From contig JAQUOX010000003.1 of NCBI GenBank assembly GCA_028716905.1, positions 1 through 42,451 on the forward strand: a stretch of 42,451 nt of DNA, in the 5' to 3' direction. Position numbers and translations under genes: made by a program. This document shows, piece by piece, positions 29,227-36,019 of the stretch. Positions within the stretch are counted from its first letter, which is position 1. Every line of letters starts with the position of its first letter. This DNA comes from Minisyncoccota bacterium. GTDB taxonomy: Bacteria; Patescibacteriota; Minisyncoccia; Minisyncoccales; Minisyncoccaceae. The notes below the pieces were generated by a model. The model was not told the origin of the DNA and did no database searches. It was given only the letters and a program-made list of their open reading frames with translations.

Positions 29227-29904
29227 CTAATCTTTTTTGAAAAGTTTTTTTAAGGGCTTTATTCTGAAGGGGGGAACAGTATCCTGGTCAAAGATGAGCC
29301 GGTTTTCCATTAATTCGTTTCTGTTGTTTGACTCCAAAACCTCATTAATGGGACTCAGTCTTTTGACGAAAATGGGGATGAGGGAAAGGAGAATGAGATA
29401 GCCGATGGGTTCAAACGTCAAACCGCCCTTAAAGGTGATAAAAATGCCGGTAATCAGAGAAAGAATAGTGCCGACCGAAGCGGTCCAGATAATGGCGAAG
29501 ATAATAGTGGGGATTAATATGACAAGCAGGGTAATGGGAGAAAACACCAGCATGGCTCCCATTAAAGCGCCTAATCCCCTGCCTCCTTTGAACTTAAGGA
29601 AGAGCGACCAGTTGTGGCCGACGACAGACATGACGCCGCAGAGAATCTGGACGGAAACAGGCAGACCGTATTCTTTGGCCAGAAAGACCGCCAGGAAACC
29701 TTTACCAATATCCAGGGCGGCTGTCAAGATACCTTGCCACAAGCCCACGTTTTTGGCCACATTTGAACCCGAGCTTTTCCTCCACCCCATTTCCAGGATG
29801 TTTTTATGGGAGGTCAGCTTGGTGACGATATAGGCAAAGGGAATGGAACCCAAGACGTAGGCCAGAGCCATAAAAGCGATAAAAACAAGATATTGGTCAA
29901 TCAT
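29227..29904 (-). CDS. PlsY-like acylglycerol-3-phosphate synthesis protein, divergent paralog
   Basis: YVLGSIPFAYIVTKL, MGWRKSSGSNVAKNVGLWQG, GHNWSLFLKFKGGRGLGALMG. Confidence 0.8.
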   Translation of the reverse strand: MIDQYLVFIAFMALAYVLGSIPFAYIVTKLTSHKNILEMGWRKSSGSNVAKNVGLWQGILTAALDIGKGFLAVFLAKEYGLPVSVQILCGVMSVVGHNWSLFLKFKGGRGLGALMGAMLVFSPITLLVILIPTIIFAIIWTASVGTILSLITGIFITFKGGLTFEPIGYLILLSLIPIFVKRLSPINEVLESNNRNELMENRLIFDQDTVPPFRIKPLKKLFKKD

Positions 29905-30568
29905 TTAAGTATGTTTTATTTCTTATTTTCTTGATTTGTTCTTCCAGGCGGTCTTTGTGGGCTATCAAGATTAGGGGCGTGGCCGCCAGGGCGGGATAGA
30001 ACAATAATATATTATATGCGTAAAGCCAGAAAAGAGCAAACACTTCTCCGGCCAATCTCCCCGTGATTTGGTCGGAAACGGCGTATTTCAGGAATTTTTT
30101 ATTTACTTTTCTCCCCATCAGTATTTCAAACAAGCTCATAAAGCAGACGACCAGAACGAGCCAGCCGAGGAAGGCTTTCCAGTCAAGATAAAGCAATATG
30201 CCCAGGAAACTGGCCGCTCCCCGGCCTCCTTTGAATTTGAGAAAAACAGAATAATTATGACCCAGAACCGCGAAGAAAGCAGCCAAAGAAACGGCCAGGA
30301 CGCTGTTTCCGGCAGTCAGGGCTTGGGCCAGATACACGGAAAGAATTGCTTTGCCGGCATCCAAAAGAAAAACAAGAAGAAAAGACAAGATTCCCGCTAA
30401 TCCTCCTTTTTCCTTGCCGGCGATTCTTAAGGTATTCAGGGCGCCGATATTCTTTGAGCCCAGTTCCCGCGGGTCTTTTTTAAAGAGAATCTTGTTGACG
30501 ATAAGGCCGAAGGGAATGGAGCCCAGGACGTAGGAAATCAGAGCGATAAGAATATATTTTTCCAACAT
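29897..30568 (-). CDS. PlsY-like glycerol-3-phosphate acyltransferase, divergent paralog
   Basis: YVLGSIPFGLIVNKI, LGSKNIGALNTLRIAG, GHNYSVFLKFKGGRGAASFLG. Confidence 0.8.
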   Translation of the reverse strand: MLEKYILIALISYVLGSIPFGLIVNKILFKKDPRELGSKNIGALNTLRIAGKEKGGLAGILSFLLVFLLDAGKAILSVYLAQALTAGNSVLAVSLAAFFAVLGHNYSVFLKFKGGRGAASFLGILLYLDWKAFLGWLVLVVCFMSLFEILMGRKVNKKFLKYAVSDQITGRLAGEVFALFWLYAYNILLFYPALAATPLILIAHKDRLEEQIKKIRNKTYLND

Positions 30569-30580
30569 ATGTTTTTAAAA

Positions 30581-31459
30581 TTAATCTTGTAATAAGCAAA
30601 CAAGAACGGTGCCCGGACCGACGTGGGCGCCGATGACAAAACTGGTCATATTGACGAACTCTATTTTCATTCCCGGGAACCTGTCTTCTAGCATTTTTTC
30701 CAGTCGCAGCGCTTCATTAAGATTATCGGCATGGCTTATGGCCGCGCGGTATTTTCCGGGCAGTCTTTTAATCAGGTTTTCTGTTTCTTTAAGCAGGGCG
30801 CTGGCCGTGTCTTTGGCCTGCATTTTTAAAGTAACCGGCTTGACCTCGCCGTCCTTGATTCCCAGAACCGGTCTCATGCCCAGGCCCTGCATTTTCTCCA
30901 AAACGCCGGCCACGGTGCCGCTGATTCTTCCTCCGGCTTCCAGCCATCGGGGATTTTCAAGCATGCCGAAAAGATGGACTTTGGAAACAAGGTCTTCCAA
31001 AACCTTAAAGGCGTTTTCCGTACTGTTTCCTTGTTCAATTAATTCCGCGGCTCTGATGGCCAAAAGCGCTTCGCCGATGTCAACATTCAGGGTGTCCAGG
31101 ACAAAGATTTTCTTTTGGGCCTCTTCGTTGAACATTTTCTTCGCCTGCATGGCGGAATTGTAGGTGCCGGATATTTTTGAGCTGACGGTGATGCAGATAA
31201 TTTTCTGATTTTGGGCCAAAAGCTCGTCATAGGCCTTTTTATAAACTCCGATTGCCGGCTGGGACGTCTTGGGGTTGGTTTTCAGTCCCTGCCTCTGGGC
31301 GTTTCGCATTTTTTCGTAGATGTTTTTTCCGGAAATGGCATTTTCTTCGCTCCAGTTAACTATGAAAGGAGCCACTTTCATTTCGTGTTTTTGGATTACT
31401 TCCTGGGGCAGAGCCGCGCTTTCCCCGATGATTATTGTTGTGTTTTTCATTTGTTGCAA
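30581..31459 (-). CDS. DegV family protein (FakB-like fatty-acid-binding subunit)
   Basis: KTSQPAIG, ITVSSKISGTYNSAMQA, IGAHVGPGTVLV. Confidence 0.85.
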   Translation of the reverse strand: MQQMKNTTIIIGESAALPQEVIQKHEMKVAPFIVNWSEENAISGKNIYEKMRNAQRQGLKTNPKTSQPAIGVYKKAYDELLAQNQKIICITVSSKISGTYNSAMQAKKMFNEEAQKKIFVLDTLNVDIGEALLAIRAAELIEQGNSTENAFKVLEDLVSKVHLFGMLENPRWLEAGGRISGTVAGVLEKMQGLGMRPVLGIKDGEVKPVTLKMQAKDTASALLKETENLIKRLPGKYRAAISHADNLNEALRLEKMLEDRFPGMKIEFVNMTSFVIGAHVGPGTVLVCLLQD

Positions 31460-31460
31460 A

Positions 31461-32336
31461 TTATAGATTATTATCGACGTGATAACCGAGAATCAGGGTG
31501 CCGGGGCCAAGATGTCCGCCCAGAGGAATGCAGGTCAGATTTAAAAAAGCTATGTTCACGTTTATATTTGAAAGCAGTTCTTTCAGTTTGCGGGCTTGGC
31601 CTTCGTTGTCGGCGTGAGTGACGCTGGCCGTTATTTTTTTCCCCGACCCTCTGATTTTTCTGGTGTTTTTTTCAAATTCTTGGAATAGGGCGCTGGCCAA
31701 GTCCTCAATGTTTCTTTTTATGCCGACAAGGGCAAGCTTGCCTTCTTTGAATCCGAACAGCGGTTTTAGGCCCATTCTTTCCGCGCCTTTTTGAACAAAG
31801 CGGGGTATCCGTCCGCTGGCTTCAAGCCATTTGCCGTCCTGATAAACACCCAGCAGTTTGAAGTTTTTTAATTCAGCGTTTAATCTGCCGACTATCTCCT
31901 GCGCATTCAGCCCTTGTTTTATGTGCTTTATGGCTTCCAGAGCGACAAGGCCTTCGCCGGCACTGCCGTTAAACGTGTCAATAACATGAATCCGGCCCCT
32001 TAGCTCCGCGCTTAGGAATTTCTGAGCCTGGATGGCTGAATTGTACGTTCCGGAAATCTTGGAAGAGATGGTAAAGCACAATACCTCCTTAAAGTGTTTT
32101 AATTTTTCTTCAAAAACTTTGGCGAAATCGTTTATTGAGGGTTGGGAGGTTTTGACAAAACCGATTACCCCCTGCTTGTCCGATTGCTCCATTTTTTGAT
32201 AAATATTTCCGGAAAATTGCGCCAGTTGCTGCAAGTCAATCTTGAACCTGACGAGCGAAATGTCGTTTTCTTTGATTATTTCTTCGGGCAAGTCAACTGC
32301 TTCGTCAGCGACAATGCCGATTTGTTTTTCTTCCAT
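31461..32336 (-). CDS. DegV family protein (FakB-like fatty-acid-binding subunit)
   Basis: KTSQPSIND, FTISSKISGTYNSAIQA, LGGHLGPGTLILG. Confidence 0.85.
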   Translation of the reverse strand: MEEKQIGIVADEAVDLPEEIIKENDISLVRFKIDLQQLAQFSGNIYQKMEQSDKQGVIGFVKTSQPSINDFAKVFEEKLKHFKEVLCFTISSKISGTYNSAIQAQKFLSAELRGRIHVIDTFNGSAGEGLVALEAIKHIKQGLNAQEIVGRLNAELKNFKLLGVYQDGKWLEASGRIPRFVQKGAERMGLKPLFGFKEGKLALVGIKRNIEDLASALFQEFEKNTRKIRGSGKKITASVTHADNEGQARKLKELLSNINVNIAFLNLTCIPLGGHLGPGTLILGYHVDNNL

Positions 32337-32340
32337 TTTT

Positions 32341-34128
32341 TTATTTCACTATCCAGCCCGCAATCAAGCTTTCTGGGCAAGCGTTGATGCTGGTCACCGG
32401 ATCGGTGATGGTTACAAAAGAGATATCCGCCCTTTTGAATTTTTTAAGGCTTTTTTTGAGCTGTTCGGCCTGCTCCGGGTTGTCGCCGTGAGCGATAACA
32501 GCTCTGATTCTTTTTCCTTTTTTAACTTCTTTGCTGGTGTGGCGGTCTATTTTTTTGAAAAGAATATCGGCGAAATCTTTGGTCCGCACTTTTCCGGCGG
32601 GCGTCATTCTCCCGTCCTTCATCTGGGTTAAAAGAAACTCTTTTTCTTCTTTTCTTTTGAACCAGCGGTCGCCGAAAGAATCTTTTTTCCACCACTGGGA
32701 GTTTTCCAAAACGGCGTAAACGTTGACCTTGGGCACGATGTTTTCCAGGCTTGATTTTATCTCCCGGACGCCCCGGTGCTCTTTTATCAGCTCAATCGCT
32801 TCCAGGATTAACAGGGATTGTCCGGCGCTGATGTTTTTGGAATCAATTACAAAAACTCTTTCCAGTTCTTCCCGGGAGAGCAGGTTTTTTGCCTTAAGGG
32901 CGGAGCGATAATTGTCCGAAAGTTTTGAGCTGGAAACAATACATAAAACGTGCTCAAAGTTTCTTAATTGGTTTTTGTAGGCCTCAAAGAAAAATTCGGG
33001 AGCGATGGATTCGACTTTCGGTTTTTGGGTCAGTCCCTGCTTCTTGGCTTCTTTGATTTTTTCGCAAATCGTGTTGCCGGCCAGGCCTTCCCCTCCGGGC
33101 CAGCTGATTTTAAAGGGAACGACTTCAATATTATAATGATTGATTATCTTTGAAGTCAGGCCGGCTCTTTCGTCAATAACCAGGCCGATGGAAACGCTTT
33201 CAATGGATTTTTCCCCGGCCACCTCTCTGGCCATGTCCTGAATTTTCAGGTTTTCAATGTCGCCCAACTCTTTCACCGCATCTCTTACTTCATACGGGTT
33301 GTCGGTGTGAATGTGTATTTTGGTCCTCTCCCCTATCTGAATAATATCCAGACAGTCGCCCAGATACTTGAGTCTGTCTTTGATGCTTTTCTCCGGCTCT
33401 TCCACGTTTTTAATCAAGGCCACCACTTCATAACGGTTGGAGATTATTTGAATAAATCTTTTGGACGCTGCTTCTTCCTTTTCCAAAGCAAATGCTTTGG
33501 GCGAAGAAAGGTCTCCTTGTTCTTTTAAGATATCCAGATAGGTTTCCAAAATCATCAAAAAGCCGAGGCCGCCCGCATCGACTACCCCGGCTTTTTTCAG
33601 CAATTCCATTTTGTTGGGAGTTTCTTTTAAGGCCTCATCGGCTTTTTCCAGGGCTTTGTAGAAGATTTTTACAATGTCTTTTTCGCTCTTTGATTCTTCT
33701 TCAAAGGTCAGGGCAAAGGCCTCAATAACGTCCAAAATGGTTCCTTCTCTGGGGTTCTGGATGGAATCTTTCGCCCTTTCCGTGCCTTTTCTGAAAGCCA
33801 GAGCCATTTTCTCCGCGTCAACGGATTTTTCTTTACCCAAGGCAGGGAAAAACCCGGCCAAAAAACCGGTATAAATAATGCCGGCATTGCCCTGGGCGCC
33901 GGTCAAAGCGCCCTCCAGAACCGCATCAGACAGCTCTTCAATGGAAGAGAAATCTTTTTCTTCTATCTGCTCTTTGATGCCCTTGAGCGTGGCGCTTAAA
34001 TTATTGCCCGTGTCCTGGTCGGGTACGGGAAAAACATTAATCTTGTTTATCTGTTCCTTGTCTCTCTCTATCCTTTCGCAGGAAAAGAGTATCATTTTTT
34101 TCAGTTCGTTTTGGGTTACTTCTTGCAT
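32341..34128 (-). CDS. Fatty acid kinase FakA-like (DhaL/DAK2) protein fused to a C-terminal degenerate DegV domain
   Basis: INVFPVPDQDTGNNLSATLKG, GALTGAQGNAGIIYTG, VDAGGLGFL; FakA middle/C region (KIHIHTDNPYEVRDAVKELGDIENLKIQDM); then DegV fold from IGLVIDERAGLTSKI to the C-terminus. Confidence 0.85.
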   Translation of the reverse strand: MQEVTQNELKKMILFSCERIERDKEQINKINVFPVPDQDTGNNLSATLKGIKEQIEEKDFSSIEELSDAVLEGALTGAQGNAGIIYTGFLAGFFPALGKEKSVDAEKMALAFRKGTERAKDSIQNPREGTILDVIEAFALTFEEESKSEKDIVKIFYKALEKADEALKETPNKMELLKKAGVVDAGGLGFLMILETYLDILKEQGDLSSPKAFALEKEEAASKRFIQIISNRYEVVALIKNVEEPEKSIKDRLKYLGDCLDIIQIGERTKIHIHTDNPYEVRDAVKELGDIENLKIQDMAREVAGEKSIESVSIGLVIDERAGLTSKIINHYNIEVVPFKISWPGGEGLAGNTICEKIKEAKKQGLTQKPKVESIAPEFFFEAYKNQLRNFEHVLCIVSSSKLSDNYRSALKAKNLLSREELERVFVIDSKNISAGQSLLILEAIELIKEHRGVREIKSSLENIVPKVNVYAVLENSQWWKKDSFGDRWFKRKEEKEFLLTQMKDGRMTPAGKVRTKDFADILFKKIDRHTSKEVKKGKRIRAVIAHGDNPEQAEQLKKSLKKFKRADISFVTITDPVTSINACPESLIAGWIVK

Positions 34129-35419: not shown

Positions 35420-36019
35420 CTATTTTATTATTCTCGGCTCAATGCCCTGGCGCAGTCTTTTAATGTTTTCCCGGTGCGCCCACCATATTAATAATATATA
35501 TATGAAAGCAAGGACAAGATAGGCAACAGACCCTGTTTTGAACCAGAACAATAGGGGCAGAAACAAGACAACAATCAAATTAGTCAGGCTCATTATTTTT
35601 AAAACAAACAAAGTAAGGGCCCAGGAAGCCAAAAATATTAAGGAATATTTAAATCCCAAGATCATGAAAAGCGTTGCCGCAACAGTGGCCACGCCTTTTC
35701 CTCCCTTGAACTTGAGCCAAATCGGGAAAATATGGCCAAGCACGGGAGAGATTGAGACCAGAGCCATTTGCCAGTCCTGGGCCAGGTATCGGCTGGCTAT
35801 ATATATAGGTATAATGGCCTTAAGGATATCAAGGATTCCGACCAGAACCCCGTATTTAAGGCCAAGGGTTCTGCCAACGTTTGTTCCGCCAATATTACCA
35901 CTCCCCTTTTTTCTGATGTCTATTTTTTTAATTTTGGCAATCAAATAGCCGAAAGGTATGGAACCTGATAAATATCCTGCAATAACGAAGAAGATTAATA
36001 AAAGTGTTTGATTTTGCAT
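35420..36019 (-). CDS. plsY: Glycerol-3-phosphate acyltransferase PlsY
   Basis: GYLSGSIPFGYLIAKIKKIDIRKKGSGNIGGTNVGRTLG, GHIFPIWLKFKGGKGVATVAA: canonical PlsY motifs. Confidence 0.92.
   Translation of the reverse strand: MQNQTLLLIFFVIAGYLSGSIPFGYLIAKIKKIDIRKKGSGNIGGTNVGRTLGLKYGVLVGILDILKAIIPIYIASRYLAQDWQMALVSISPVLGHIFPIWLKFKGGKGVATVAATLFMILGFKYSLIFLASWALTLFVLKIMSLTNLIVVLFLPLLFWFKTGSVAYLVLAFIYILLIWWAHRENIKRLRQGIEPRIIK

Follow-up and report, generated by a model that had tools for sequence, protein, structure and literature searches.

The window, that is, the whole stretch of 42,451 nucleotides that was analysed, lies in a Minisyncoccota genome of 508 kb that is 92.75% complete. An ORF on the minus strand (32341..34128) encodes a 595-aa protein in which FakA is fused to a DegV domain, here read as a putative pseudo-FakB, and homologs of this fusion occur in 21/21 genomes of the window family. 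Downstream on the same strand are two free DegV genes and then two PlsY paralogs, all identified by profile search: the first DegV/FakB-like protein (31461..32336) lies 4 bp past the fusion, followed by the second (30581..31459) and by the PlsY-family acyltransferase paralogs 2 (29897..30568) and 3 (29227..29904). The order fusion-DegV-DegV is conserved across most of the window family. PlsY paralog 1 (35420..36019, minus strand) is located upstream of the fusion, with two other genes between, and is the only one of the three to pass the PlsY equivalog cut-off (TIGR00023); the three paralogs are of different subtypes within one small genome. A CDP-archaeol-synthase-like gene (CarS, PF01864; 34855-35415) adjoins PlsY in this bacterial genome.

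Three domains were recognised in the fusion by profile search, all on the minus strand. The Dak2 kinase domain (residues 34-198; 33535..34029) scored 118.4 bits and the FakA-like_M middle domain (residues 232-303; 33220..33435) 54.3 bits, and the DegV profile PF02645 matched a full-length domain from residue 314 with 104.4 bits against a cut-off of 27 (residues 314-595; 32344..33189). PF13684 (FakA-like_C) gave no match in the fusion at E ≤ 0.01. The protein fell below the full-length cut-offs of YloV (TIGR03599; 263.8 of 396.1 bits) and FakA (NF038248; 159.4 of 975), and these two profiles covered residues 9-307 and 9-300 only. Alignment and column counts located PDQDTGNN and DAGGLGF in the kinase domain, including the Asp pair (D38, D40) and DAGG, and both histidines of the middle domain (HIH). 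The remaining residue of the Cys-His-His site, at the Cys240 position, is Glu (RYEV in the window), as it is in 20/20 readable members of the window family and in 23/25 intact fusions of the order. The middle-domain Cys240 is essential in S. aureus. Because Glu stands at this position in nearly all fusions of the order, intact or degenerate, kinase activity of the fusion is assumed here. The cysteine at this metal/catalytic site is retained in 64/66 other fused or split FakAs and in 3/3 canonical FakAs.

The fatty-acid site was examined with the residue numbering of S. aureus FakB1, transferred via alignments to solved FakB1 chains. In FakB1, the fatty-acid carboxylate is held by a hydrogen-bond network of Thr62, Ser95, Ser171 and His270, and catalysis requires Arg173 (PMC8892158). 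Of Thr62, Ser95 and His270, the fused domain keeps Ser95 alone: Thr62 is replaced by Val372 (TSQP to VESI; 33013..33015) and His270 by Asn, within PVTSINACPESL (residues 577-588; 32365..32400), which stands in place of the HxGPG loop. Ser95 is the first Ser of SSK in SSSKLSDNY (residues 399-407; 32908..32934), from which the Gly-Thr of SGT is gone. Arg173 is absent, and the GGR lid segment that carries it is deleted or replaced (residues 479-490; 32659..32694). A first-pass annotation had named KVESIAPEF for TSQP, SSKLSDNY for SSKISGTY and INACPESL for HxGPG, had called both stand-alone DegV proteins intact and had found PDxDTGNN and DAGGLGF retained in the kinase part; the alignments bear out each of these readings, the fatty-acid residues being present in both free proteins. 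The strongest sign of the site loss, the Arg173 segment, was absent from its list, as was the retention of Ser95. From these residues we infer that the fused domain is a pseudo-FakB that has lost fatty-acid binding.

The same state was found throughout the window family, which comprises 21 genomes, 15 of them forming a main family beside a sister subclade. Residues were counted in 128 DegV domains, most from the order and the others from a few relatives in the phylum. Among the fused domains of the window family, Thr62, Arg173 and His270 were each retained in 0/21 and Ser95 in 20/21, whereas the free DegVs encoded in these genomes have Thr62 in 39/39, Arg173 in 38/39, His270 in 38/39 and Ser95 in 38/39, with Thr in the remaining one. 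The alignment of homologs suggested earlier as a check thus found the degeneration conserved in 21/21 genomes, an agreement that also rules out chance, assembly error or a frameshift as its cause. Thr62 and Arg173 are near-universal among free DegVs; His270 was dropped as a main criterion, since many free DegVs of the order's sister families lack it (retained in just 9/38). The sole free DegV of the window family without Arg173, the first free DegV of G003:C6 (L008:719-1540), is short of the GGR segment, through either sequencing error or real loss. Arg205, a FakB1 contact, was considered as a clue to a docking face and set aside: it is R/K in 20/21 fused domains of the window family but is unconserved in free DegVs and other fused domains.

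Structure prediction, also suggested earlier and carried out here on the fused domain, gave a FakB fold without the lid helix. AlphaFold2 modelled the window's domain with a pLDDT of 91.5 and a fused comparator whose site is intact with 94.6. Against 29 DegV/FakB entries the window model aligned over 244-267 residues with Z 23.8-29.8 and rmsd 2.4-3.9, and the comparator reached Z 28-33 against FakB/DegV structures. Residues 177-187 of the window model (fused-domain model numbering) are predicted to be disordered, and the helix after the Arg173 position (comparator 187-198) is absent from it; the corresponding region of FakB1 is a dynamic lid (PMC8892158). The fused domain is thus predicted to retain the two-subdomain DegV/FakB fold minus the lid helix. 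Compared with the fatty-acid binders FakB1, 1mgp and 2dt8, it shares the fold (Z up to 29.8) and PF02645 but is without Thr62, His270, Arg173 and the lid helix.

The degenerate fused domain is under purifying selection. Its dN/dS was 0.06-0.19, compared with 0.06-0.13 in intact fused domains, several of these values being rough as dS exceeded 1, and 43 of its positions are invariant across the 21 genomes of the window family. These data rule out domain decay.

The fusion also occurs in most other families of the order, where it retains both Thr62 and Arg173, and in 62 distant fused domains (Neomarinimicrobiota, Gemmatimonadota, Bacillota and others) Thr/Ser62 and Arg173 were present in all. 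Because of this retention, the loss of the site is derived, not ancestral. Intact fusions, found in Neomarinimicrobiota, Gemmatimonadota, Listeria, Sporosarcina, Proteiniclasticum and other CPR, have the same layout of Dak2, FakA-like_M and DegV and the same length as the window protein but differ from it in retaining Thr/Ser62 and Arg173, and so could act as a self-contained kinase plus carrier. In a tree of the kinase and middle domains, the window family formed one clade (support 100/100) nested among intact fusions, and the degenerate state required 3 changes, of which at least 2 are forced by well-supported branches. Degeneration therefore arose at least two or three times independently; its bearers are the window family, G030/G092, G131 and G176, the last with a PlsY-FakA-DegV triple fusion.

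All genomes with a degenerate fused domain (25/25) also encode at least one free DegV, and in the 11 genomes that have the fusion and no free DegV the fused domain has Thr/Ser62 and Arg173 in 11/11, where free DegV counts are lower bounds because the genomes are incomplete. This pattern would be expected if a kinase lacking its own carrier had to rely on a free one; with two or three independent losses there are too few pairs for statistics on the tree. A strict rule that a free FakB entails degeneration of the fused one was rejected, because many genomes with intact fused domains carry free DegVs, and the reverse alone holds.

A FakB-related domain that carries no fatty acid is known from canonical FakA. 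The C-terminal domain of S. aureus FakA (FakA_C; PF13684, PDB 6w6b) is related to FakB and is without elements that build the fatty-acid tunnel. It does bind FakB, for which the Km increases some ten-fold when this domain is lost (PMC9136124). The window's domain is alike in being a FakB-related C-terminal domain of FakA without a fatty-acid tunnel; it differs in having no PF13684 match and 104 bits to DegV, and its model reaches only Z 13.6 to FakA_C compared with Z 24-30 to FakBs. As far as tested, it is a later conversion independent of FakA_C, because it was derived inside a clade that mostly retains a FakB-like site. It probably works like FakA_C, by analogy, without belonging to that family.

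We consider it fairly likely that the fused domain was once a FakB, no longer carries fatty acid and has been retained on FakA so that the two free FakBs encoded directly downstream can dock there. Docking is suggested by S. aureus FakA_C, which is likewise FakB-related, carries no fatty acid and binds FakB. A free FakB would take up a scavenged fatty acid and, once loaded, dock on the pseudo-FakB of the fusion; the Dak2 and middle domains would then phosphorylate the fatty acid of the docked FakB, which would depart with the acyl-phosphate and deliver it to PlsY. The first-pass annotation had proposed a pseudo-FakB tethered to an active kinase. Its first half is sustained by the conserved site loss, the purifying selection and the intact free FakBs directly downstream; the kinase looks active by its retained motifs, although its Cys-His-His site has Glu in place of the Cys.

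The loops at the old site lend themselves to another reading, in which the domain has been re-tooled for a different ligand, a metabolite or another lipid, and exerts allosteric control over the kinase, with docking secondary or absent. The replacement of HxGPG reads P(V/I)TSIN(A/V)CP(E/Q)SL in 15/15 main-family genomes, where PVTSINACP(E/Q)SL and IDSKxISxGQS are near-invariant, and in the sister subclade another sequence, PVMSLKMGYKG, is fixed. Such non-random loops at the former carboxylate site, in a domain under purifying selection, could mark a new ligand instead of plain loss. The lid segment, however, is variable and predicted to be disordered, unlike a new enclosed pocket, and the one analog that has been tested, FakA_C of S. 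aureus, is bound by FakB but by no fatty acid (PMC9136124), so that we regard this reading as unlikely. Still less probable is that the fused domain receives the acyl chain of a free FakB for presentation to the kinase domain, as in the transfer model proposed for S. suis FakA_C (summarised in PMC11617999): Ser95 and the overall fold are retained, but neither Arg173 nor the carboxylate ligands, Thr62 and His270, remain, and the lid helix is missing in the model. That the domain is mainly a structural relic which stabilises or dimerises FakA and binds no partner seems equally improbable. In its favour, the dN/dS of the closest pair (G000-G001) is higher in the fused domain (0.19) than in the kinase domain (0.04); against it speak the 43 invariant positions, the presence of the fused domain in all uncut fusions observed in the window family and the assignment of S. 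aureus FakA dimerisation to the middle domain (PMC9136124).

On the reading we favour, as a docking platform, these tiny Parcubacteria probably repeat a design known from Staphylococcus. A literature search on FakA-DegV fusions or Fak in CPR found no relevant paper among those available to it. The earlier remark that no description of the arrangement was known holds for the independent and recent derivation from a FakA-FakB fusion, but not for the principle: an analogous docking domain, related to FakB and binding no fatty acid, is part of canonical FakA. A carrier domain has become a pseudo-carrier, and probably a dock, two or three times, which makes the origin of the C-terminal domain of FakA testable with living intermediates. 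A more speculative idea, which we put forward tentatively and with some doubt, is that FakA and FakB started out as a single fused enzyme that needed no separate partner and that, once free FakBs had assumed carriage, canonical FakA_C stayed behind as an old pseudo-FakB; if so, the Parcubacterial lineages would replay that conversion, with intact, degenerate and unfused stages within one order.

The lipid metabolism of these bacteria gives the fusion a setting. Profile searches found neither PlsX (PF02504) nor ketoacyl synthase (PF00109) in 19 genomes, and PlsY was present in 19/19 and PlsC in 12/19. Since PlsX and ketoacyl synthase were not found and PlsY was in all 19, the only acyl-phosphate route found in them would be the one in which Fak activates scavenged fatty acid for PlsY. 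Five related CPR genomes encode PlsY, Dak2, the FakA middle domain and DegV in a single protein of 774-870 aa (L055:3545-6133, L056:2743-5352, L058:3034-5625, L061:2432-4867 and L062:4183-6504), four of which were recognised by domain scan and that of L058 by length and domain order. Their PlsY is of the subtype of the window's paralog 3 (48-55% identity), which is thus joined to FakA-DegV elsewhere in the order, a single chain apparently serving as fatty-acid carrier, kinase and acyltransferase. In CPR Nealsonbacteria, PlsY and PlsC were found and PlsX was not, and the source of acyl-phosphate was left open (PMC7242380). As neither PlsX nor ketoacyl synthase was found in the 19 genomes with Fak, all have PlsY and some have the PlsY-FakA-FakB fusion, fatty-acid kinase is a strong candidate for the acyl-phosphate source in their lineages. 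This bears on the gap in Nealsonbacteria and suggests how PlsX-less bacteria could activate scavenged lipids.

Other arrangements of FakA were seen in the same phylum. One genome (G926; L118:808-1725) encodes a FakA that has no C-terminal domain, with a DegV gene next after it, and another (G616; L119:562-2406) a canonical FakA with PF13684 and an adjoining free DegV.
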